DNA of 54,522 nt, from positions 50,444-104,965 of the forward strand of contig DF820474.1 of the NCBI GenBank assembly GCA_000739535.1, in the 5' to 3' direction. Of this stretch, positions 22,423 through 48,309 are shown in pieces. Each line of letters opens with the position of its first letter. Position 1 is the first letter of the stretch. The stretch comes from Candidatus Vecturithrix granuli (GTDB lineage Bacteria > Moduliflexota > Moduliflexia > Moduliflexales > Moduliflexaceae). The notes beneath the pieces were generated by a model. It was not told the origin of the DNA, made no database searches, and saw only the letters and a program-made list of their open reading frames with translations. The translations under genes were made by a program, and so were the position numbers.

Positions 22423-23688
22423 TTACTGGTATGACCAATTGGCTTGTAAGGCGTCGAACATCGCCAAAAGGTTCTCGACTGGAATACCTGATTGAATATT
22501 GTGGACATTATTAAACACAAATCCGCCGCCAGATTTGAAGATATTGACGTTCCGGCTCACTTCGGCGTGAACGACGTCGGGCGTGCTGAAGGGGAGGATG
22601 TGCTGCACATCTATTGCGCCGCCCCAGAACACAAATTTGTCGCCATATTGCGTTTTGAGCAGTTCCGGGTCCATCCCTTTAGCAGAAATCTGCACCGGAT
22701 TCAGAATATCAATCCCGGCTTCGTGGAAATCATCGAGGAATTTCACGATTGACCCGCAGGTATGGTAAAAGGTCTTCCAGTTCGTGTGCTGGTGAACCCA
22801 ATCATTCATGGCTGTGTGTAAGGGTTTATACAATTCCCGATAGGCTGCCAATGAAATAAAGGGGCCGTTCTGAGAGCCGAAATCGGTCCCGCTCATCACA
22901 ACGACTTCAATCCGATCTCCGACCGCCTGCTGATACAATTCCAAATTTTTCATTTGGAGTTCGAATTGATACTGGTAAATTTCTTTGACGTAGGATTTAC
23001 GCGTCACGGTGGACATATACCATTCCTGGGGATCGCGAATCCCTTTTGGGTCAAGAATTCCCGGCCCCGGCACAATCGCAATATCTCCAAAGCCCGCGCC
23101 CCAAAAATTGCCGATCAGGGCATAATCGCTGTTGTTGTAATAATATTGAGAGGTGTCTTCGATGAAGCGTAATTCTTCCTCAGTATAGAGGCTGTATGTT
23201 TGCTCAACCCATTCTTTCGGATCAAGTTTAGCTTCATCAATCGGTTCTTGCCGGACAATCGTATCGAAATAAAAACCGCCCTTTGGCATCCGTCCGGACG
23301 GCCGCGCGCGGCGATCCCCTTTCGGATATTGTACAATATCGCCATTTTCCAGCACATCGTATTCGAAATGCCCCGAAATCAAAACGTCTGTGCCATCAAA
23401 TAACCTGAAGGGTTTCCAGTTCTCGTTTTTATAGCCAAACAGCGTGGTTGGCAATTGAATACCAAAAGTATCAACTCCCAGGGCCTGCTTGACCGGTTCT
23501 TCTACCTCCGCCAGCATCTGGAAGGGATCATAGACTTTAATTGCGCCTTCCGTAATCCCCATCGCCTTTTTTAATCTGGCATACATACCGGCCTGAATGC
23601 CTGTGACCAGGGTGCTTGCCAGATCCACTGGCACCCGGTCGGCTTCCTGATGATTCAATACGCGTCGCACGCGTTCACGTGATGTCAT
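22423..23688 (-). CDS. Uroporphyrinogen decarboxylase (URO-D) family protein, probably not a heme enzyme
   Basis: The protein has 421 aa and starts MTSRERVRRVLNHQEADRVPVDL, the N-terminal motif of the URO-D/MtaA/CmuA superfamily. It also shows GTDFGSQNGPFIS and FYHTCGSIVKFLDDFHEAGIDILNPVQ. The latter H-x-C-G motif is typical of corrinoid-dependent methyltransferase relatives rather than HemE. Members of this branch often sit near sugar ABC transporters in anaerobes and their substrate is generally unknown. Here the sugar transporter begins about 1.5 kb away on the same strand, with an oppositely oriented exporter between them. Transport-linked metabolism is an inference. Confidence 0.88.
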   Translation of the reverse strand: MTSRERVRRVLNHQEADRVPVDLASTLVTGIQAGMYARLKKAMGITEGAIKVYDPFQMLAEVEEPVKQALGVDTFGIQLPTTLFGYKNENWKPFRLFDGTDVLISGHFEYDVLENGDIVQYPKGDRRARPSGRMPKGGFYFDTIVRQEPIDEAKLDPKEWVEQTYSLYTEEELRFIEDTSQYYYNNSDYALIGNFWGAGFGDIAIVPGPGILDPKGIRDPQEWYMSTVTRKSYVKEIYQYQFELQMKNLELYQQAVGDRIEVVVMSGTDFGSQNGPFISLAAYRELYKPLHTAMNDWVHQHTNWKTFYHTCGSIVKFLDDFHEAGIDILNPVQISAKGMDPELLKTQYGDKFVFWGGAIDVQHILPFSTPDVVHAEVSRNVNIFKSGGGFVFNNVHNIQSGIPVENLLAMFDALQANWSYQ

Positions 23689-24123: not shown

Positions 24124-25050
24124 ATGATCAAGACAGCTATGTTGACGTTTCTTCCAGGAATCCTTTTGGGCCTTGTCGGGTCTTGCAATTTTTCCGTCGC
24201 CTTCCTTGGCTCCAGAATTTTTTATGAGAAATCCGGACAAAGTCCGTTCAATCTCTTGATCCTCTCCTATATTCAAATGGGGATATTTTCGATAGTATTA
24301 TTGCCATTTGTGTGGCAGAATACGCTGCTTTCCTGGCAGATTCTGCCCCCCCTGCTCGGCTTCGCCTTCTTCGGCATGTCAGGGCAATTGACCTTCTTTT
24401 TGGCGTTACGATACGCGCAATCGTCGCAAGTCACGCCGCTGTTAGCCCTGAAAATTCTGATCATTGCAGGCGGCAGCGTCCTGATTCTTCAGAAAAACCT
24501 GTCATTCCTGCAATGGCTGAGCGTGGCGATCTGTTTTACAGCCGCGTTGGCGCTCAATTTTTCCGGAGTCGCCATGCCTGTGCGCGCACTGCTCTACGTG
24601 ATCGTCACCTGCTGCGCCTATACCTGCGCCGATATTTGTGTTACTCTGCTGATCCGCCGCTTAGAATCGCTCGCAGTTGCCCACTCTGCGCTGTTGGCAA
24701 CCTGTCTGGCCTATGGAGTCTCCGGGATCGTCGGCGCGCTGTTGATGATCAAAATCTGGCAGGATCTGCGGTTGACTCGTCCCTGGAAATATGCGCTGTA
24801 CTTTTCAACCCCATATTTTCTGGCGGACATCTGTATTTTTGCCACGTTCAAACTCGTTGGCCCGGTCCTGGCCAATATTCTCATGTCCACCCGGGGCATT
24901 ACGTCAATTCTCCTGGCCAGCATCATTGCCCGGAAAAATATGGCCTATCTGGAACAACCGACTACAACCGCTGTGACCATACGCCGATTACTGGCTGCCG
25001 CGCTCTTGACGCTTGCCATTGCCTTGTATGTCATTGGCGAGCCAGCGTAG
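24124..25050 (+). CDS. EamA/DMT-superfamily transporter
   Basis: The protein has 308 aa and is almost entirely hydrophobic, with about ten membrane helices in two halves, the usual layout of drug/metabolite transporter exporters. ATG 24124 is the only in-frame ATG near a stop at 24106-24108, so the start is well constrained even though the ribosome binding site is weak. A GCGAAACT repeat sits just upstream. The substrate cannot be predicted. It is convergent with the sugar ABC ATPase gene. Confidence 0.85.
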   Translation: MIKTAMLTFLPGILLGLVGSCNFSVAFLGSRIFYEKSGQSPFNLLILSYIQMGIFSIVLLPFVWQNTLLSWQILPPLLGFAFFGMSGQLTFFLALRYAQSSQVTPLLALKILIIAGGSVLILQKNLSFLQWLSVAICFTAALALNFSGVAMPVRALLYVIVTCCAYTCADICVTLLIRRLESLAVAHSALLATCLAYGVSGIVGALLMIKIWQDLRLTRPWKYALYFSTPYFLADICIFATFKLVGPVLANILMSTRGITSILLASIIARKNMAYLEQPTTTAVTIRRLLAAALLTLAIALYVIGEPA

Positions 25051-25172: not shown

Positions 25173-26705
25173 TTATGCTGCCGCCGCTGTAATTTCATGG
25201 ACGTTATATGTCGCGCAGGCCATGATCACGTCTTCACTCAGTTGGCTGCGGTTCAGAATGCCAGTGACCTGACCTTCGCGCATCACGACCACGCGGTCGG
25301 ACATCAGCAGAATTTCAGGCAGTTCGGACGAAATCAACAGAATGCCGATCCCTTCCAGCGATAACTGGTGCATCAATTTATAAATTTCAACTTTCGCCCC
25401 TACGTCAATCCCATGGGTTGGCTCATCCAGAATTAAGAGCCTGGGTTTGGTGGCTAACCAACGCGCCAGAACGGTTTTTTGCTGGTTCCCGCCGCTTAAA
25501 CTGGAGACGGGATCATCAAAGTCGCCGAATTTCAAATTCAATTTGTTGACGAACTCGGTCAGAATCCGCGTGACGTTCGCATAATTGATAATACCGCTGC
25601 GGCTCATCGTCTGACGCGGCATTTCTGCCAGGGCCATATTAAACGCAATCGGCAGTCCCATAAAGAGCGAGAGTTTTTTGCGATCCTCTTGCACCATCGC
25701 CAATCCATGAGCAATGGCTTCGGCCGGGGAATGAAAACGCACGGGCTGCCCTTCAAACACAATTTCACCGGAAGTGAATGGATCCGCGCCAAAAATGGCC
25801 CGGGCAACCTCGCTGCGGCCGGCGCCGACTAACCCGGCAAACCCTACAATTTCCCCCTGTCGAATCGTAAAACTGACATCTGCAAAATGCGGACCGGTCA
25901 ACTTGCGCGTCTCCAATAAGACACCGCCTAAGGCATGACCTACATGGATATTTTCGCGGTGCAGCTCGCGCCCCACCATCATGCGAATAATTTTTTCTAC
26001 GCTCGCCTCGGCTTTCCGAATCGTGTCCACATACTCGCCGTCGCGCAATCCTGTAATGCGGTCGGAAATCCGCAGCACTTCTTCGATCTTATGAGAGACG
26101 TAAATAATGGCGACTCCTTGCTGTTTCAAGCTTTCAATCACGCTGAATAAACGTTCCGTTTCCGCGCCGGCCAGCGAGGAATTCGGCTCGTCCATTATGA
26201 TCAGGCTGGCATTGATTGAAATGGCTTTGGCGATTTCCACTAACTGGCGCTGCGAGATGCTCAGATCATTCACGATGGTGTAAGGATCAATCTCCAGGCC
26301 GACCTGCGCCAGGACGCGCCGGGTATCTTGTTCTGCAGTTAGCCAGTTGATGCGTCCGAAGCGGCTCGGCATACGTCCCATATACACATTTTCAATGACA
26401 TTCATCGTGGGCAGCATGGAGAGTTCCTGGTGGATGACGGACAACCCGGCCTGAATCGCTTCTATCGGCGAAATGAAATTGACTTCCTGTCCTCGAAAAT
26501 AGACCTTGCCGCTATCACGTTTTACGATGCCGCCCAAAATTTTCATTAAAGTGGATTTCCCCGCGCCGTTTTCGCCCACCACCGCATGAACCTCTCCGCG
26601 CTGCACGTCCAAATGGACATTGTGCAAGGCTTGTAATCCGCCATAGCGTTTTGAAATGCCTTCGATAATTAATATGCGATTATCCATAGCCTGGGTATCC
26701 TGCAA
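25173..26705 (-). CDS. Sugar ABC transporter ATP-binding protein (RbsA/MglA type, two ATPase domains)
   Basis: This 510-aa protein has two fused nucleotide-binding domains, as is usual for ribose/galactose-type importers. The N-terminal domain shows GENGAGKST, an LSISQRQ signature and IIMDEPNSSL. The C-terminal domain shows GLVGAGRSE, LSGGNQQK and LILDEPTHGIDVG. The reading frame may start at MQDTQAMDN or at the internal MDNRIL. It is the last gene of a minus-strand set after permease and binding protein, and energises import of a sugar or related ligand at the inner membrane. Confidence 0.95.
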   Translation of the reverse strand: MQDTQAMDNRILIIEGISKRYGGLQALHNVHLDVQRGEVHAVVGENGAGKSTLMKILGGIVKRDSGKVYFRGQEVNFISPIEAIQAGLSVIHQELSMLPTMNVIENVYMGRMPSRFGRINWLTAEQDTRRVLAQVGLEIDPYTIVNDLSISQRQLVEIAKAISINASLIIMDEPNSSLAGAETERLFSVIESLKQQGVAIIYVSHKIEEVLRISDRITGLRDGEYVDTIRKAEASVEKIIRMMVGRELHRENIHVGHALGGVLLETRKLTGPHFADVSFTIRQGEIVGFAGLVGAGRSEVARAIFGADPFTSGEIVFEGQPVRFHSPAEAIAHGLAMVQEDRKKLSLFMGLPIAFNMALAEMPRQTMSRSGIINYANVTRILTEFVNKLNLKFGDFDDPVSSLSGGNQQKTVLARWLATKPRLLILDEPTHGIDVGAKVEIYKLMHQLSLEGIGILLISSELPEILLMSDRVVVMREGQVTGILNRSQLSEDVIMACATYNVHEITAAAA

Positions 26706-26758: not shown

Positions 26759-27790
26759 TTACTGACTTTCAGTCCAGTATTGATCAAGGTTGTCTTTGGT
26801 GACTAATTCGGATTTGGTTAACAGTTTCGCCGCTGGCGGCACCGTTCCGGAAACCAGATAATTGAACAGCCTGATTGCCGGATCATGCCCCTGGGCGTAA
26901 GGATTCTGACTAATCGTCCCGGTAATGACGCCTTCTTTGATCAGACGCATAACCTCATCCACGAAATCGTAGCAGACCACTTTAATTTGACCGGTTTTGC
27001 CAGCGTCTTTCACCGCGTTTCCAGCGCCGAATTGGCCGCCCGCAGCAACGAAGATTGCAGCTAAATCAGGATTCGCCGTCATAAAGTCGCGCGTTTGAGT
27101 ATAGGCCACGTCCGACTTATCATTGCTTTCCACTTCGCCCACAATTTGAATGTCAGGCGCTTCTTGCTTCAGGGCTTCAATAAACCCTTTACGTCGAAGT
27201 TCATGCCCTTCTACGGCGAAAAATCCTGTAATAATGGCGACTTTCCCTTGCTTGTTTAGCGCATCCGCCACAATCTTGCCGGCCGCTAGGCCCTGTTTAT
27301 ACAGGTCTGCGCCGACAAAGAAGAGCCGTTTATTGGGTTCAGCGGTTTCCACATTAAAGGTTGCCACCGGAATACCGGCCTCTACAGCCTTATTGATGTA
27401 CGGAACCAGTCCGCTATCGCCGGCAACGGTCGCAATCGCGTCATATTGCTGCACAATCGCGGATTCAATGGCTGACGCAAACACTTCGGTCGTATGTTGA
27501 TCCCCGGGCACGATCCAATCCACTGAGCCATTAAACTCCTTCAGTTCTTCATTCGCATCCAGCGCGCCCTGTTTCACCGGAATCCAGAAGGGATTGTTTT
27601 CAAGTCCCAACACGGCAATGCGAATAGGTTTCTCGGATTTGGCAATCGGTTTTGCCGCGCCTTCATCATCCATCGTAGCTTCGCTTGCAAACTCCGGGCC
27701 CGCCGGCAAGTTTTGAGCGAAAACAACTTGAGAGACGCAGAACGTCACGAACACGAACAACAATACCAGCATATTTTTTACAGGTTTCAT
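26759..27790 (-). CDS. Periplasmic sugar-binding protein of ABC importer (RbsB type)
   Basis: The protein has 343 aa with a clear signal peptide (MKPVKNMLVLLFVFVTFC, cleavage likely after VFA near residue 25). A type I periplasmic binding fold begins at IRIAVLGLENNPFW. The motif order (VDWIVPG, YDAIATVAGDSG, GIPVATFNVE, LAAIFVAAGGQFGAG) matches the ribose/galactose-type binding family. The ligand is not identifiable by eye. It lies 53 bases upstream of the ATPase gene and 176 bases downstream of the permease gene, with a hairpin repeat in the latter gap. Confidence 0.94.
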   Translation of the reverse strand: MKPVKNMLVLLFVFVTFCVSQVVFAQNLPAGPEFASEATMDDEGAAKPIAKSEKPIRIAVLGLENNPFWIPVKQGALDANEELKEFNGSVDWIVPGDQHTTEVFASAIESAIVQQYDAIATVAGDSGLVPYINKAVEAGIPVATFNVETAEPNKRLFFVGADLYKQGLAAGKIVADALNKQGKVAIITGFFAVEGHELRRKGFIEALKQEAPDIQIVGEVESNDKSDVAYTQTRDFMTANPDLAAIFVAAGGQFGAGNAVKDAGKTGQIKVVCYDFVDEVMRLIKEGVITGTISQNPYAQGHDPAIRLFNYLVSGTVPPAAKLLTKSELVTKDNLDQYWTESQ

Positions 27791-27966: not shown

Positions 27967-28974
27967 TCAACTCCGCCCACTGGGTTTGCGGAGTTGATCG
28001 AGCGAAACGGCCAGAATAATCACGACTCCGATAGCGATGGTCTGCATGTACGCGGAAAAATGGAGCAAGACAAACGCATTACGCAGAATCGCCATGATGG
28101 CAGCGCCGATAATGGCCCCAATAATCGTGCCCTCGCCGCCAGCCAAACTCGCGCCGCCAATCACCACTCCGGCGATAACGTCCAGCTCTTTGCCCATGCC
28201 TGCATTGGTCGCGGCCGTCGAGAGCAAACCGCCATCCATAATGCCAGCGAGCGCACATAACCCACCAGTTAACAGATACACAAAAATTCTGACCCGGTCA
28301 ACATTGACGCCCGACAAGCGTGCGGCTTCCAGATTACTTCCCACCGCGTAAATCTGGCGTCCTAGCACGGTATGTTTGAGGAAGAGGCTGAAAATCAGCA
28401 CCAGGACAGCCATTTCAATGACCGGAAAAGGCACCGGGCCGATATAACCGTTCCCTAAAAAGTTGATCGCCTGATTGCGCATCGGGATATTACTCGCCAC
28501 TGCACCCTGGAGGCCGGTCGCAAGGAGGTAGGTTAACCCACGTCCGATACTGAGCATGGCTAAGGTCGTGATAAACGGGTTGACCTTGATCTTCGTAATA
28601 ATCAATCCGTTGGCAGCCCCAATAAGAAACCCTGTACCAAAACCGCCGATGAGGGCTGCGAAGGGGGGTAATTGGTGATAGAGTAACCGCGCCGTGACCA
28701 TGCCGGATACGGCAAGGATGGATCCGATGGAAAGATCGATCCCGCCCGTGATGATAATCATGGTCATGCCGATAGCCATAATCCCGACAGTGGACATGCC
28801 GCGCAGGATGTTGAAAATATTTTGCACGTTCAAAAAATAAGGACTGGCAAAACTCATAATTACAATCAGTGTGACCAGCGCAATAAAGACCCCCATTTCC
28901 CTGACCCGCAATAACCGGGTCAACAGATTCCGTCGTCCACCAGGTTTTGATACCGTTTGCATATCTGTTGTCAT
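27967..28974 (-). CDS. Sugar ABC transporter permease (RbsC type)
   Basis: The protein has 335 aa and about ten membrane helices. Family motifs include GMTMIIITGGIDLSIGS in the N-terminal half, the cytoplasmic-loop segment GRQIYAVGSNLEAARLSGVN that contacts the ATPase, and VIGGASLAGGEGTIIGA near the C-terminus. It is first in the minus-strand transporter operon. ATG 28974 follows AGAAGGGG with a short spacer. The 245-bp gap to the divergent activator contains a sigma-54 type promoter oriented into this gene. Confidence 0.95.
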   Translation of the reverse strand: MTTDMQTVSKPGGRRNLLTRLLRVREMGVFIALVTLIVIMSFASPYFLNVQNIFNILRGMSTVGIMAIGMTMIIITGGIDLSIGSILAVSGMVTARLLYHQLPPFAALIGGFGTGFLIGAANGLIITKIKVNPFITTLAMLSIGRGLTYLLATGLQGAVASNIPMRNQAINFLGNGYIGPVPFPVIEMAVLVLIFSLFLKHTVLGRQIYAVGSNLEAARLSGVNVDRVRIFVYLLTGGLCALAGIMDGGLLSTAATNAGMGKELDVIAGVVIGGASLAGGEGTIIGAIIGAAIMAILRNAFVLLHFSAYMQTIAIGVVIILAVSLDQLRKPSGRS

Positions 28975-29034
28975 TGTTGCCCCTTCTATAAAAGTGTGTG
29001 TTCCTGCTCATATTGCTCCATCTTTATATCTTTT

Positions 29035-29050
29035 AGCAAATCTGTTGCCA
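29035..29050 (-). promoter_or_regulatory. Sigma-54 promoter for the sugar transporter operon
   Basis: On the minus strand the sequence reads TGGCAACAGATTTGCT. The -24 GG and -12 GC are in the exact spacing of the sigma-54 consensus (TGGCACG-N4-TTGCW). It points toward the permease start about 60 bases away. The adjacent gene on the other side encodes a sigma-54 activator, which strengthens the call. Confidence 0.75.
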
Positions 29051-29124
29051 ACAGGTGAAGGATATATGAAAAAACCTCTAACTTATTGAAATGATAGAGA
29101 GTTACAGCAAAAGATGAAATAAGA

Positions 29125-29143
29125 GTTGACTTTCTCAGTCAAC
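29125..29143. promoter_or_regulatory. Candidate activator-binding palindrome (UAS)
   Basis: GTTGACT-TTCTC-AGTCAAC is a perfect 7-bp-arm inverted repeat. It lies about 75-90 bases upstream of the -24 element of the minus-strand sigma-54 promoter, a typical enhancer distance. It is also immediately upstream of the -35 box of the activator gene, so it could serve both activation and autoregulation. Confidence 0.55.
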
Positions 29144-29145
29144 CT

Positions 29146-29175
29146 TTGACACTGGAATGTGTTTCAAAATTATAC
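29146..29175 (+). promoter_or_regulatory. Sigma-70-like promoter of the activator-kinase operon
   Basis: TTGACA at 29146-29151 is followed after 17-18 bases by ATTATA/TTATAC (29169-29175). The start codon of the activator at 29220 lies about 45 bases downstream. Confidence 0.55.
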
Positions 29176-29219
29176 ATTCGCCATGAAACATGTATTTGAA
29201 AGAAACATAGGGACCCTGG

Positions 29220-30551
29220 ATGGAAAAATGTCTTCTGATTATTGATGACAATTCTCAATTGTGTCAAACGCTGGCGCAAAATTTTGCACGTTGCGGATAT
29301 CGCGCCTGCTATGCCATCAATCAGTCGGAAGCCCTGGAGATTGTTGCACGCCAGGCGCTTCAAGTGATATTGTTAGACATGATGCTGGGAGAAGATAATG
29401 GCCTTGACCTGGCACAGCAAATCCAGCGTATCTGCCCCCATATCCCGATTATTATGATTACCGGCTATGCCTCCATTGAATCTGCGGTACAAGCCATCAA
29501 ATTAGGAGCGTTCGATTATGTGAGCAAACCCCTGAAATTCGATCATCTCGTCGCCGTTGTCGAAAACGCTCTCAAAAGTGTTCATGCGCATGAGGTGAGG
29601 CCAGAGGCAGCAGACGCGCCAGGTATGGACTCTTTCCGCACATTGACCCATAATGCGCAGATGTTGGAGTTGGATGAGACAATTACCAAACTGGCTGCGA
29701 CGGATTTGCCAGTGTTGATTTGCGGCGAGCATGGCGTTGGCAAAGAAATCGTGGCGGATGTGCTCCATAGCCGTTCAACACGCCAGCACGCACGCATGTT
29801 GAAAGTCAATTGCGCAGCGTTTCCGGAAACCTTGCTGGACAATGAATTGTTTGGTCACGAAAAAGGGGCCTATACCGGAGCAACGACAGCCTTTAAAGGA
29901 GTGTTCGAACGCGCGAATCATAGTACACTCTTTCTCGACGAAATCGGCGACATGCCCTTAACGATTCAAGCCAAGATCTTGCGGACGCTTCAGAATCACG
30001 AGATTCGTCGTCTGGGAGGGCAGGCAACGATTCAGGTGGATGTCCGTTTTCTCGCAGCGACAAATCAAGACCTCAAAAAACTGATCCGAGAGGGGCAATT
30101 CCGGGAAGATTTGTTCTACCGGTTAAATGCGGCCACGCTTTACGTGCCACCCTTGCGGGAACGCAAGGATGATCTTCCGGTGCTGCTCAATCACTTTTTA
30201 GATGAACACGCCCATCTTACAACTACTCAGCGGAAATGCGTCAGTGAAGACGTCTTCCAGGTATTCTTGCAGTATCAATGGCCTGGCAATATCCGGGAAT
30301 TAAAGAATGTCATTCATTATGCGGCTGCAGTTTCGACCTTCGATACCATTGACCTCCGCGATCTTCCTTCGGATTTACGAAACCTTTCGCCGCAAGGCCA
30401 TACAATGAATATTCGGGAAGAAATGGAAAAAAATTTGATTCTCACGACCTTGCGCAACACCGATTATAACAAGAAAAAAACCGCTGAATTGCTGAATATG
30501 GGGCGCAAAACCCTGTATGACAAGTTAAAGAAATATGGCATCACCCTCTGA
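29220..30551 (+). CDS. NtrC-family sigma-54 response regulator
   Basis: The protein has 443 aa. The receiver (Asp53 in ILLDMMLGED, Lys103 in VSKPL) is followed by a sigma-54 AAA+ domain with Walker A GEHGVGKE (169-176), the sigma-54-contacting GAYTGA loop (216-221), Walker B LFLDE and the FREDLFYRLN and WPGNIRELKN motifs. A Fis-type helix-turn-helix closes the protein (KKKTAELLNMGRKTLYDKL). All elements of an active enhancer-binding protein are intact. It overlaps the following kinase gene by 17 bases, so the two form a cognate pair. The likely target is the divergent transporter promoter. Confidence 0.95.
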   Translation: MEKCLLIIDDNSQLCQTLAQNFARCGYRACYAINQSEALEIVARQALQVILLDMMLGEDNGLDLAQQIQRICPHIPIIMITGYASIESAVQAIKLGAFDYVSKPLKFDHLVAVVENALKSVHAHEVRPEAADAPGMDSFRTLTHNAQMLELDETITKLAATDLPVLICGEHGVGKEIVADVLHSRSTRQHARMLKVNCAAFPETLLDNELFGHEKGAYTGATTAFKGVFERANHSTLFLDEIGDMPLTIQAKILRTLQNHEIRRLGGQATIQVDVRFLAATNQDLKKLIREGQFREDLFYRLNAATLYVPPLRERKDDLPVLLNHFLDEHAHLTTTQRKCVSEDVFQVFLQYQWPGNIRELKNVIHYAAAVSTFDTIDLRDLPSDLRNLSPQGHTMNIREEMEKNLILTTLRNTDYNKKKTAELLNMGRKTLYDKLKKYGITL

Positions 30552-32370
30552 TTCGCGCGTCTTGCTGCGTTTGATTGACATCTGCCTGGATTATGGGGAA
30601 TGGCGTGCCTTGCACAAGGTGAATTTGACCATCGAGACCGCCCAGGTACACGCCATTGTCGGCGAACATGGCGCCGGAAAATCATCGCTCGGCATGGTGA
30701 TTGCCGGCATTCGGAAACCGCAGGCAGGCTTGATCACGTTTGACGGACGGTCATACCGAACTTTGACGTTAAAGGCTGCGCGTCAATTAGGCATTGCCAT
30801 TGTGCACCAACAAATCCTGTCGCTCAATGAACGGTTCACGGTGGCTGAGAATTTGTTCCTCAGCAGCGCCCCGTTCCACAGATTGATCTGGAAACAAAAA
30901 ACCGTCCAGGCTGTCGCAGATTTCTTCGCTCGCTATCATCTGACGCTGGATCCATGCATCCCGGTGGAAGAATTGAAGATTCCGGACCGAATTTTTGTGG
31001 AGATTCTGAAACATCTATACGCGCGTCCCCGACTCTTAATTCTGGATGAAGCCCTGGAAAAGCTCTCCGCGTCCGCGCTTCAACAGGTCTTGCAGATGCT
31101 TATGGAATTCGAGCAGACAGGCATGTCGGTCCTGTTTATTACGCACCGGCTTGATGATATTTATGAGTTTGCCGATAAAGTGAGCGTCATTAAACATGGT
31201 GAAATTTTAATCACGGATGATGTCTGGCAACTCGATAAATTAAATCTGATTAAAATCGCTTATACGCAAATTTCTCAGGAACCGACGCGGGAAAATCTGA
31301 ATCAAGAATTTTACCATCTGCTGAAATATAACGAAGCGATTCTGCGGAATCTGCCGGTCAATCTGCTGGTGACGGATCCCACGCATCGCATTAAGCTGGT
31401 GAATGACTATTGCCGGCAGTATTTTCGCCTGGAAACCGGAGCCTACGAAAATCTGCCGGTAACGCAGCTCGTACAGAGTCCCAATGCAGAGGTCGCGCAA
31501 CTGCTCGCGCCGCCAGACGTCCCTCGTGTAAGTCAAACCTTCTATCAAGCTCCGCTGACTATCAACGGCGTCAGGATCATCAGTAATATCAAAACCTTTC
31601 CTATTTACGATGGAAGCTTACTCATCGGCAATATTATCATTATCGAAGATATTACCGAATACGATCACATCCAGAAACAGTTATTTTTGTCGGAAAAATT
31701 GGCTTCAGTCGGCCTGTTAGCCGCCGGCGTCGCTCATGAAATCAACACACCTTTAGAAATCTTATACACTCATCTGGACTACATGAAATACCGGTTTCAT
31801 ACTGAGGAATTTCATGCGGCGATTGATACCCTCCACGAACAAATCGCCTATATTGCCAATATTGTAGGGAATTTACACTCTTTTTCCGACCATAAATCCT
31901 CCATCCCGAAAGAGATGGAACTCAATAGCGTCATACAGCGAATGCTCACTCTGGTCCGGCATCATGCGCGGCGACAACAAATTCGGATTCATTTTACCCC
32001 GTCCTCTGCGGAAGTGTTTATTCGCGCCAAGGACAATGAAATCAAACAGGTGATTTTGAATCTGCTGAAAAATAGTTTCGAAGCCATGCCCGCCGGCGGC
32101 GACATTTTTATTGCCACCGCATTAGTCCAGACTGATGGAGTCAATGCTGTGGAATTAACCTTTCGCGATACGGGCTGCGGCATCTGTGATGAGAACCCGA
32201 ATAATATCTTCTTGCCTTTTTATTCCACGAAAACGAAGGGCGGCAGCAATATCGGTCTGGGCTTGTCGGTCAGTTATGGCATTATCACGAAATATCAGGG
32301 AACGATCATCTTAGAAAATACTGCCGATTCAGGCTGTCAATTTCTCATCACGTTGCCTGTAGCGTCCTAG
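30535..32370 (+). CDS. ABC ATPase domain fused to a PAS-HisKA-HATPase sensor kinase
   Basis: The protein has 611 aa and no membrane segment. Residues about 10-235 form a single sugar-importer-type ABC ATPase domain, closely resembling the N-terminal half of the transporter ATPase at 25173. It has Walker A GEHGAGKS (43-50), Q-loop Gln92, Walker B LLILDE (167-172) and switch His204. The ABC signature, normally like LSIAQRQ, is degraded to LKIPDRI (147-153). A PAS domain (about 265-375) and an NtrB-like kinase follow (His401 in GVAHEINTPLE; G box NIGLGLSVSYGI). Retained nucleotide-binding motifs with a lost signature suggest sensing or docking rather than transport work. The gene is coupled to the NtrC-type activator upstream. 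Confidence 0.94.
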   Translation: MASPSDSRVLLRLIDICLDYGEWRALHKVNLTIETAQVHAIVGEHGAGKSSLGMVIAGIRKPQAGLITFDGRSYRTLTLKAARQLGIAIVHQQILSLNERFTVAENLFLSSAPFHRLIWKQKTVQAVADFFARYHLTLDPCIPVEELKIPDRIFVEILKHLYARPRLLILDEALEKLSASALQQVLQMLMEFEQTGMSVLFITHRLDDIYEFADKVSVIKHGEILITDDVWQLDKLNLIKIAYTQISQEPTRENLNQEFYHLLKYNEAILRNLPVNLLVTDPTHRIKLVNDYCRQYFRLETGAYENLPVTQLVQSPNAEVAQLLAPPDVPRVSQTFYQAPLTINGVRIISNIKTFPIYDGSLLIGNIIIIEDITEYDHIQKQLFLSEKLASVGLLAAGVAHEINTPLEILYTHLDYMKYRFHTEEFHAAIDTLHEQIAYIANIVGNLHSFSDHKSSIPKEMELNSVIQRMLTLVRHHARRQQIRIHFTPSSAEVFIRAKDNEIKQVILNLLKNSFEAMPAGGDIFIATALVQTDGVNAVELTFRDTGCGICDENPNNIFLPFYSTKTKGGSNIGLGLSVSYGIITKYQGTIILENTADSGCQFLITLPVAS

Positions 32371-45190: not shown

Positions 45191-46284
45191 AAGATGAAAA
45201 AATCCCTGTTTTGGTGACTGCTATTGGAGGGGGTAGCTATGGTGGGCAGATCCTCAAGGCTATTCGCCTTGCTAAAGGGGAAAGGTACTACATTGTTGGG
45301 GCAGATACGAATCCGAACTGTCCTCAATTTGATTTGGTTGACAAGCGTGTTTTACTGCCTTTTGCAAGCGATCCTTCCTATTTGGACAAGCTCTTAGCAG
45401 TCTGTACGCAACATCACATCAGAGCGATTTTTCATGGTTGTGATCCGGAACTTAAGCTTTTTGCGCTCAAAAGAGAGGCGATTGAACATCAAAGCATTTT
45501 TTTACCTGTGAATCCCTGGTCAGTCATCCAGACCTGCATGAATAAGGAAGAAACCAGCCGCCGACTCAGGGAACTTGGCTTTGATCCGCCCCGGTTCATT
45601 CGCGTGACTTCAAAGGAGGAACTCAAAAAAATTGATTGGTTTCCTGTTGTTGTGAAGCCTTCGATTGGCAGCGGCGGCTCCGCCAATGCGTTCATTGCTC
45701 AAAATACGAGAGAACTCCTTGGCTTAGCTGACTATCTCGGAATAGAGACCGTCGCAGAACACTTTCTTGTGCAAGAATATGTTGGCGTCCCGGATGACGA
45801 ATATACTGTAGGAGTTCTCCATGATATGGATGGAAATTACGTGAACGCGATTGCCGTCAAACGATTGCTCTCAGGTCAATTAAATATTCGCATGACAGTT
45901 CCCAATCGAACGGAGCGCCATGACCTTGGCCCCAAATTGGTCATCAGTTCAGGCATAAGTCATGGATATGTCGGCCGTTTCCCTGAGGTCACAACGCCAT
46001 GCAAGGCAATTGCGAAAGCCCTTGGCGTGAAGGGGCCTGTCAATATCCAATGTCGCCTTATCGCCGGGAAGGTGAAAGTGTTTGAGATTAATCCACGATT
46101 TTCAGGTACGACCTCCATCCGGGCCATGGTTGGTTATAACGAACCAGATATCCTGCTAAGACGCCATGTGCTTCATGATCGTTCGATTCAGCCCGATTTC
46201 GAATATAATGAAGCCTTAATTTTACGTAATTTGATTGAGATTCCAGTCAAGAAAGATGAACAATACACAATGTCCGATTTGTAA
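45187..46284 (+). CDS. ATP-grasp ligase (CarB/PylC-like)
   Basis: The protein has 365 aa. A pre-ATP-grasp Rossmann region (VTAIGGGSYGGQILKAIR, GADTNPNCPQ) is followed by the ATP-grasp core (VVKPSIGSGGSANAF, VQEYVGVPDDEYTVG, FEINPRFSGTTSIR). Such enzymes form acyl-phosphate intermediates to join a carboxylate and an amine or thiol. In polysaccharide clusters they can attach an amino acid to a sugar. The substrate here is unknown. It overlaps the next gene by 29 bases. Confidence 0.92.
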   Translation: MKDEKIPVLVTAIGGGSYGGQILKAIRLAKGERYYIVGADTNPNCPQFDLVDKRVLLPFASDPSYLDKLLAVCTQHHIRAIFHGCDPELKLFALKREAIEHQSIFLPVNPWSVIQTCMNKEETSRRLRELGFDPPRFIRVTSKEELKKIDWFPVVVKPSIGSGGSANAFIAQNTRELLGLADYLGIETVAEHFLVQEYVGVPDDEYTVGVLHDMDGNYVNAIAVKRLLSGQLNIRMTVPNRTERHDLGPKLVISSGISHGYVGRFPEVTTPCKAIAKALGVKGPVNIQCRLIAGKVKVFEINPRFSGTTSIRAMVGYNEPDILLRRHVLHDRSIQPDFEYNEALILRNLIEIPVKKDEQYTMSDL

Positions 46285-47416
46285 AAAATATACCCTGGCG
46301 GAGATATTAAAAACCGATGGATCTGTTTCATCAGACGGCGTGTTTCAGCCATTCTCCATCAGTTTAACAACTTGTGAGTTTTGTGGAAATGCCCATATCC
46401 TCCAGGACGCCGGAATGCTTCAACACATTCAGAAGTTTTACCAACAAGAATATGCGTTTTTACTTAGTTCCGAAGAAGAAGAACCATGTGAAATCACGGA
46501 ACATACAGCTCGCAAGTATAGTGAGAGTCTTGTTTCTTTCTTTTCTGCATATATAGATTGCGCAGTGCACCATCGGATATTGGATGTTGGCGCAGGAAAA
46601 GGTAATTTTTTAACCGCATTGCATAAAAAGTACCCCAGTATTGAAAAACACGCAATTGAGCCGGGTCCCGCTTATAAACATCTCGTAAAGCATCCCTTTC
46701 TTAAAAGCGCTCAAAAGAATTTTTTTGATCCGTCTTTTTTTAATGAAAAATTTGACTTAGTATCTCTTTCATTCGTCTTGGAGCATGTATCATCACCCGT
46801 AGAGTTTCTCCGCAGTATAAAACAGGTGCTTACTGACAAGCATTCATTGGTCCTGGTTGAGGTTCCTAATTTTTCTCATAATAAAAGCGACTTACTGACT
46901 TTTGATCATTTGTTCAAATATACAGAAACGTCTTTTGAAAATCTTGTCTTCTGTTCAGGTTTTTCTATCGTGGCTCGTCAAGTTGACCCAAAGCGTGTTC
47001 CCATGCAGTTTGTCATTCAACCTGATATTAAACGATCTATTATTGCACGGTCAGAATTCCAGACCTTTATGAATGCCCATGAGTATCTTCAATTTGTCAC
47101 GTCAGAAGCAAACAAAATATCAACTGATCACATCGCAATCTACGGGCAAGGACTTCTATTGCCGTATTTTTTAGGTACTGCAGTTATTAAACTTAAAAAT
47201 ATCAAATGTATCATTGATGACAATCCACTCTATCATCATACATTATATCGCGGTGTAATACCAATTGTCTCACTTGATGAATTTTCAAAGGATCTCCATT
47301 TTGAAGTATCGGCCATATTGCTTGCCATGAATGATTGTTATCATGAGAATGTCTTATCGAAACTTCAGTCAAAAAATCTCAATATTCCAATTTATGGTCA
47401 ATGGGGTTCGATATGA
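46256..47416 (+). CDS. Zinc-finger/SAM methyltransferase of C-methyltransferase layout
   Basis: ATG 46256 gives 386 aa. An N-terminal CPICKKY...CEFCGN zinc-binding region is followed by a class I SAM domain (HRILDVGAGKGNF, LSFVLEHVSSPVEFL). A second Rossmann-like C-terminal domain (IYGQGLLLPYFLG, IDDNPLYHH, IPIVSLDEF) completes it. The three-part design is that of sugar C-3 methyltransferases (Methyltransf_13/14 type), so methylation of a deoxysugar nucleotide is a reasonable guess. Codon use is AT-richer than in the flanking clusters. Confidence 0.88.
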   Translation: MNNTQCPICKKYTLAEILKTDGSVSSDGVFQPFSISLTTCEFCGNAHILQDAGMLQHIQKFYQQEYAFLLSSEEEEPCEITEHTARKYSESLVSFFSAYIDCAVHHRILDVGAGKGNFLTALHKKYPSIEKHAIEPGPAYKHLVKHPFLKSAQKNFFDPSFFNEKFDLVSLSFVLEHVSSPVEFLRSIKQVLTDKHSLVLVEVPNFSHNKSDLLTFDHLFKYTETSFENLVFCSGFSIVARQVDPKRVPMQFVIQPDIKRSIIARSEFQTFMNAHEYLQFVTSEANKISTDHIAIYGQGLLLPYFLGTAVIKLKNIKCIIDDNPLYHHTLYRGVIPIVSLDEFSKDLHFEVSAILLAMNDCYHENVLSKLQSKNLNIPIYGQWGSI

Positions 47417-48309
47417 AAATATTATTAACAGGAAGCACCGGATTTTTGGGGACATTTATTCGAAATCGAACATCATTACAGAAGACCAACTTCATTTTCG
47501 GCTCAACCTCTGACTGTCATTCAAATCATGACCTGGTGCGATTTCAATCTCTTTACCAGGAAGCTGAAAAACTTATTAAAGATGATCTTTTCGCTATCAT
47601 CCACTGTGCGGCAATTATTCCATCTTCATTTTCTGCGGCAACGTATGAAGAAGTTTTTCTTCCCAATATTCAAATGATGGAAAACCTATGCCAATTAGCC
47701 TTCCAAAAACATATACGGAAATTCATTTATATATCGAGTTTTGGTTCAATGCAGACCCCAGAACAATTAGATATTCGCGACTATTACACGCTTGTTAAAA
47801 TTACGGGCGAGCTTTACTGTAGAATGCAAGAGGCTCATGGAATACAAACAGCCAGTTTGCGTATATCGTCCCCATTTGGAGAGTGGCAGCATCAACGCAC
47901 AGTTGTTCGAATTTTTGTTGAACAGGCGCTCAAGAATGAACCCCTGGAAGTTTATGGAACAGGTTCCAGAGAACAAAATTTTACGTATGCCGGCGATGTG
48001 TTAGCTGCTATTGAGGCGGTCGTGAAAGCTCCTAAGATCTCTGGAGTCTATAATATCGTAGGTCCTGAAAGCATTTCTATGCTGAAACTTGCGCAGACAA
48101 TCGTCAACATCTCTGGCTCAAGTGCACCCATTGTCTGTGGAAGGCAGCCCGATCCGCAAGAATTGTACCGACCAGAGTACAATTATACCAGAGCGAAAAG
48201 AGAGTTAGATTATTCACCGTGTTCACTCGAAAAAGGACTGACGCAATATATCGCCTGGATCAAGAAACAACAACAGGGAATCTTGCATGAGACAGTGTCC
48301 AGATGTTAA
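47413..48309 (+). CDS. NAD-dependent epimerase/reductase
   Basis: ATG 47413 (ATGA overlap) gives 298 aa. It shows GSTGFLGTF, YISSFGSM, YYTLVKITGE and RISSPFGEWQH. This is the extended SDR fold with catalytic Ser-Tyr-Lys intact. It likely reduces or epimerises the methylated keto sugar made upstream. It ends the overlapping four-gene unit. Confidence 0.9.
   Translation: MKILLTGSTGFLGTFIRNRTSLQKTNFIFGSTSDCHSNHDLVRFQSLYQEAEKLIKDDLFAIIHCAAIIPSSFSAATYEEVFLPNIQMMENLCQLAFQKHIRKFIYISSFGSMQTPEQLDIRDYYTLVKITGELYCRMQEAHGIQTASLRISSPFGEWQHQRTVVRIFVEQALKNEPLEVYGTGSREQNFTYAGDVLAAIEAVVKAPKISGVYNIVGPESISMLKLAQTIVNISGSSAPIVCGRQPDPQELYRPEYNYTRAKRELDYSPCSLEKGLTQYIAWIKKQQQGILHETVSRC

Follow-up and report, generated by a model that had tools for sequence, protein, structure and literature searches.

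A locus in the genome of Candidatus Vecturithrix granuli is likely to be a single instance of a module, present at many loci, in which a histidine kinase, its partner regulator and sigma-54 turn on a CUT2 (ribose-type) ABC sugar importer. The window, which here means the whole stretch of DNA that was analysed, spans 54,522 nt (assembly GCA_000739535.1, contig DF820474.1, positions 50,444-104,965; G000:C10:50444-104965) of a genome of 8.38 Mb, denoted G000. We class it as a sigma-54 two-component system whose unusual sensor derives from an importer. In the proposed circuit, a soluble kinase carrying an RbsA-like ABC domain would monitor the importer, most probably either through contact with the permease at the docking site of RbsA or through nucleotide occupancy, and would phosphorylate its partner, an NtrC-type regulator. 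The regulator would then bind upstream DNA, probably at an inverted repeat at 29160-29190, and its AAA+ domain would drive opening by the sigma-54 RNA polymerase waiting at 29035-29050, allowing transcription of the importer operon. The sequence itself shows rpoN, the promoter and how often it recurs, the fusion kinase, the activator domain, and phosphotransfer residues that are intact. The circuit assembled from them appears well supported; within it, the action of the regulator at this promoter, its binding site, the signal sensed by the kinase and any docking on the permease are what we infer.

Gene content of the locus

The regulator and kinase form an operon that is divergent from the importer operon:

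22423-23688, minus strand: URO-D/MtaA-superfamily protein (Pfam URO-D), possible downstream member of the importer unit
25173-26705, minus strand: RbsA-like ATPase with two ABC domains (Pfam ABC_tran, two stretches)
26759-27790, minus strand: periplasmic sugar-binding protein (Pfam Peripla_BP_4, 5.9e-55)
27967-28974, minus strand: RbsC-like CUT2 permease, gene 1 of the importer operon (Pfam BPD_transp_2, 2.3e-43)
29220-30551, plus strand: NtrC-type response regulator with receiver, sigma-54 AAA+ domain with a GAYTGA loop, and Fis-type HTH (Pfam; loop and invariant residues)
30535-32370, plus strand: ABC-histidine kinase with RbsA-like ABC domain (~8-240), PAS-like domain (~262-375), HisKA and HATPase_c (Pfam, NCBIfam, predicted structure, Foldseek)

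The top NCBIfam model for the permease is the ribose permease, below the model cut-off, and the AraG, XylG and RbsA models for the ATPase all fall under theirs. The closest solved chains to the sugar-binding protein are CUT2-type sugar-binding proteins. A relative (43%) of the URO-D protein is the first gene of a sigma-54 operon at another locus (L051:6227-7483), and genes of this superfamily accompany CUT2 importer operons there, in the window, and at L185, L195 and L199. An EamA-family transporter gene (24124-25050, plus strand), oriented against the operon, separates the URO-D-like gene from that of the importer ATPase. At 46001-48000 the G+C content falls to 0.39, against ~0.50 across most of the window.

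A histidine kinase with an RbsA-like ABC domain

The fused build of the kinase, which the initial annotation did not mention, is the most unusual part of the locus. Residues ~9-240 are hit by NCBIfam models of CUT2 sugar ATPases (AraG, XylG and RbsA), in their first ABC domain, and residues 211-610 by AtoS (NCBIfam); Pfam reports ABC_tran, HisKA and HATPase_c. The predicted structure (pLDDT 78.9) has a PAS-like fold at ~262-375, and Foldseek searches with this model returned PAS/LOV histidine kinases together with ABC ATPases, with ZraS among the hits. The protein has no membrane-type hydrophobic stretch (peak 19-residue mean hydropathy 1.36); a peak of 1.6 is reached by 8 of 36 kinase relatives.

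At least 36 ABC-histidine kinases occur in Modulibacteria (KSB3) and Spirochaetota. An NtrC-type regulator adjoins the kinase in 36/36 loci, and an ABC ATPase gene lies within the stretch taken in 35/36. Among 40 genomes, mostly one per family, full-length relatives were confined to G000 (six copies, including the focal one) and to G001 of the same family (three); a phylum-level search found them in two of four genomes, and the 392 Spirochaetota genomes searched gave 25 matches in 16 genomes. In a contig scan of the collection, full-length fusions were again seen in KSB3 and Spirochaetota only, among the 80 loci kept from the matches listed. Two other phyla yielded no fusion kinase in 98 and 3 genomes, respectively, a weak test whose empty answer shows little. 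Kinases with at least 36% identity to the focal kinase are termed A-type (21) and the remainder B-type (15). Two kinase/regulator/importer systems, one A-type and one B-type, stand back to back within ~15 kb at L040 (G000:C8:160000-179900). An apparent remnant copy is found at G000:C19:188380-188835 (L047:4369-4815), where a 148-aa open frame corresponds to no more than the C-terminal part of the kinase, at ~60% identity. No ABC-domain histidine kinase appeared in the titles or abstracts of the open-licence papers searched, and the KSB3 genome paper (PMC4312070), in the parts consulted, stresses many sensory and transport genes and leaves the module unnamed.

The kinase portion has the features of a HisKA kinase, with HATPase_c and an H-box whose HE is kept in 36/36 sequences. 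In the ABC domain, the Walker A lysine, the Q-loop Q and the Walker B D are likewise present in 36/36, and the Walker B glutamate in 33/36. The H-loop histidine is kept in 24/36, and the signature helix has drifted, with Q at position 153 in 10/36 kinases versus 31/35 ATPases, as judged from column counts and from the alignment rows themselves; these 35 rows include one L040 protein twice and, for L041, a non-CUT2 ATPase. A regular-expression count of the ABC signature gave zero in the kinases and zero in real ATPases, and was left unused as uninformative. Walker A reads GEH in the kinases and GEN in the ATPases (H in 34/36 vs 0/35), and the second ABC domain of RbsA, AraG and XylG is missing from the kinases. 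With its H-loop and signature helix diverged, the domain departs from a functional ABC importer ATPase. Because the nucleotide-binding residues are kept while these two elements have decayed, it is an ABC-derived domain that would be expected to bind ATP and is improbable as a transport motor.

The partner regulator

In its receiver, sigma-54 AAA+ domain and Fis HTH, the focal regulator has the build of an NtrC-type protein, and the phospho-acceptor D53 is invariant in 34/34 aligned regulators. The GAFTGA loop of such proteins is the part that contacts sigma-54. A-type regulators carry it as G[AS][FY]TGA in 21/21 cases, and B-type regulators depart from GAFTGA in 9/15, six of these having GA[FY]T[DN]A and three being without the searched stretch. 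At L175, L176, L177, L178, L180 and L185, where the B-type loop is GAFTDA, GAYTDA or GAFTNA, the importers still have strong -24/-12 elements.

What the ABC domain may sense

The ABC domain of the kinase may take the place of RbsA on the permease, with no transport role of its own, and so let the kinase read transport occupancy directly, a tentative reading that lies on the doubtful side. A serious possibility, if somewhat short of probable, is that the same circuit operates but that the ABC domain never contacts the importer, serving as a cytosolic ATP/ADP or metabolite sensor with a borrowed ATPase fold. The decay of the signature helix and H-loop beside intact nucleotide-binding residues would suit such a sensor, as would the largely separate descent of kinase and permease. 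Over 30 of the 36 loci (L041, L052, L168 and L181 were dropped by choice, and L174 and L182 had no full permease or ATPase match), distances correlate at r=0.90 between kinase and regulator and at r=0.88 between permease and RbsA, compared to r=0.19 between kinase and permease and r=0.10 between kinase and RbsA. The low kinase-importer values indicate that the control pair has repeatedly been joined to different importers. Co-evolution of kinase and permease, tested as evidence for docking, is thus weak; the partial correlation between the kinase ABC domain and the permease is 0.13, which further disfavors a permease-specific contact, although a conserved generic contact may still occur. A sensor that ignores the importer is harder to reconcile with the identity of the domain, which matches one part of CUT2 sugar importers in particular, their first ABC domain, and with the position of the kinase genes, which adjoin CUT2 importers in nearly all loci. 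Furthermore, the segment following the Q-loop, which in importers lies on the permease side, is still RbsA-like in the kinases, with N106 in 32/36 of them and in 35/35 ATPases.

The sigma-54 promoter and its recurrence

Whatever the signal, the proposed module would act on the importer through one element:

29035-29050, minus strand (read 29050-29035): -24/-12 element TGGCAACAGATTTGCT, an exact TGGCA-N6-TTGCW, pointing at the importer

This promoter is real and conserved. As the initial annotation had stated, it faces the permease with correct spacing: the GG and GC are separated by 10, as in sigma-54 promoters, and 76 nt separate the first T of the element from the permease ATG. The consensus is quoted in PMC6510779. 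An equally good chance match in the focal interval has p=0.004 (500 dinucleotide shuffles). The gene rpoN, which the annotation had proposed to look for, is present in the genome (one Sigma54_DBD match, E 2.8e-64) and also in 5/5 further module-bearing genomes tested. TGGCA-N6-TTGC occurs 202 times in G000 versus 38 for the reversed pattern, so this promoter type is apparently widely used there.

Related loci were compared in 35 regions picked by hand after an initial scan, with hand-made score weights based on a consensus that agrees with PMC6510779; L041 was excluded since it has no adjoining importer, and for L177 the region scored was one, two genes past the kinase, in which a site was already known. 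In these regions, a -24/-12 element points toward the transporter at p<=0.02 in 33/35 fusion-kinase loci and on the opposite strand in 0/35, the first count becoming 31/33 when one of each near-duplicate pair (L167/L168, L179/L181) is dropped. The exact TGGCA-N6-TTGCW was counted in 22/35 by reading the scored output. Regulator and importer diverge in 27 loci and are codirectional in 8, where the site lies between kinase and importer. By comparison, other CUT2 importer loci serving as controls (19 from G000 and one from G001, under a lenient scoring that covered several gaps per locus) reach a site score >=21 in 2/20. One of these hits, L187, is ~8 kb from the orphan L041 kinase/regulator pair; at the other, L204, a different large sigma-54 activator lies upstream. 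This difference between related and control loci bears out the earlier claim that a sigma-54 promoter couples the importer to its divergent activator. Since the promoter is retained despite the nearly unlinked descent of kinase and importer, its persistence speaks for function and against mere inheritance.

The two exceptions are L046, where the -24/-12 element TGGTATTCTCTTTGCT reaches only p=0.038, and L174, which has p=0.63 before a transporter without a CUT2 ATPase match. Together with the lack of an adjacent importer at L041 and the nine B-type loop departures, they count against the circuit. It is unlikely that the regulator acts mainly on other targets and that the -24/-12 element serves a different activator: the abundance of sigma-54-like sites in the genome and the separate activator upstream of the two-site L204 importer would allow it, but in both phyla the sites go together with the fusion kinase/regulator pair. 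A chance match, which the single-locus probability by itself makes only moderately rare, is very improbable given the recurrence in related loci and its near absence from the opposite strand and the controls.

At L206:6510-11787 and L204, a CUT2 importer that is without the fusion kinase has two -24/-12-like sites. Upstream of this importer are a 639-aa activator (receiver plus sigma-54 domain) and a 1078-aa kinase-like protein.

Upstream elements

Between the promoter and the regulator gene, the following elements were considered:

29117-29130, plus strand: AAATAAGAGTTGAC, a -35-like element common to 6/6 KSB3 divergent loci (sequence comparison)
29125-29143, no strand: palindrome GTTGACT-N5-AGTCAAC of the initial annotation
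29146-29173, plus strand: possible sigma-70-type regulator promoter TTGACA-16-AATTAT, not above chance
29160-29190, no strand: candidate activator-binding dyad TGTTTCA-N17-TGAAACA (inverted-repeat scan)

The palindrome at 29125-29143 had been described as perfect and as enhancer-like. The repeat exists, but it is near chance, as at least one inverted repeat with arms >=7 and loop <=6 occurs in 8% of shuffles (p=0.08). Its mirror-read arm belongs to a generic -35-like element, AAATAANNSTTGAC, which is found in 6/6 KSB3 divergent loci, and the other arm is not shared among these loci; the enhancer role is therefore unsupported. AAATAANNSTTGAC itself occurs 20 times in the genome versus 3 for the reversed pattern. 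A module-specific operator is ruled out by 16 of the 20 sites, which lie away from the module with no -24/-12 score >20 within ~300 bases. A clean -35 box is doubtful, a -10 at 17 bases being absent in several loci, and an IHF site would be off by one from the consensus spacing at the KSB3 loci.

The dyad at 29160-29190 is a better enhancer candidate than the palindrome. Inverted repeats with 15-19 nt loops number 9 in 24 divergent regions versus 2.15 expected, with loop bins chosen after seeing the window, which makes the dyad a lead and not proof. It overlaps the possible -10 region of the regulator and would fit self-regulation. The sigma-70-like promoter that had been assigned to the activator is recovered with a score of 10/12, but a shuffled region is expected to hold 1.3 sites of this kind. 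At L040:13580-13665, the regulator and its -24/-12 element flank a 16-nt inverted repeat that encloses a 13-nt repeat, which makes this region longer than in the paralogues.

Relation to known systems

NtrB/NtrC, ZraS/ZraR and AtoS/AtoC resemble the focal pair in combining a receiver-AAA+-Fis regulator with a PAS-HisKA kinase, and AtoC and AtoS are the best NCBIfam models of the focal proteins, both below cut-off. The focal sensor differs from all of these in its ABC ATPase domain, the absence of a membrane segment and a CUT2 importer as target. To our knowledge, ABC sugar importers are not usual sigma-54 targets. The initial annotation had extended this to sugar importers in general, which is too broad, as sigma-54 control of PTS sugar uptake is published (PMC6510779). 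LevR-type PTS sugar operons are like the focal locus in that sugar uptake genes lie behind a sigma-54 promoter (consensus TGGCANNNNNNTTGCW), but they pair a PTS importer with a PTS-regulated activator, whereas the focal locus pairs an ABC importer with a two-component system (PMC6510779).

Kinases that read ABC transporters are known from BceS-BceAB and PhoR-PhoU-Pst (PMC6978683, PMC8534201). In BceS/BceAB, too, a two-component system both regulates an ABC transporter and senses how active it is; as outlined in those sources, BceS spans the membrane with two helices, lacks an ABC domain and serves exporter-type peptide detoxification, whereas the focal kinase is without a membrane segment and its module has a CUT2 importer and a sigma-54 promoter. 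The focal locus thus falls outside the Bce type, in which a membrane kinase lacking a sensor of its own goes with a BceAB-type exporter. In PhoR-PhoU-PstSCAB, as in the proposed module, the kinase is informed by the state of an ABC importer, but through a separate PhoU adaptor and the PstB ATPase, whereas the focal kinase itself contains the ATPase domain (PMC6978683).

Significance

Bacteria with dozens of similar sugar importers must choose which to make, and the module is a testable candidate answer, in which a kinase built from an importer part is coupled to the strictest on/off type of promoter. If the docking reading were true, it would represent a new class of transport-coupled sensor, setting the amount of importer by how busy the importer is, and an interchangeable control unit placed behind many different CUT2 importers. 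The locus also provides an annotation handle for uncultured bacteria, namely a GEH[GR]AGKS-like Walker A together with HisKA, and a -24/-12 element upstream of CUT2 genes, which would apply, among others, to relatives of the bulking filaments of wastewater sludge. Taken together, the recurrence of this arrangement in dozens of loci and two phyla suggests an undescribed way of tuning sugar uptake.
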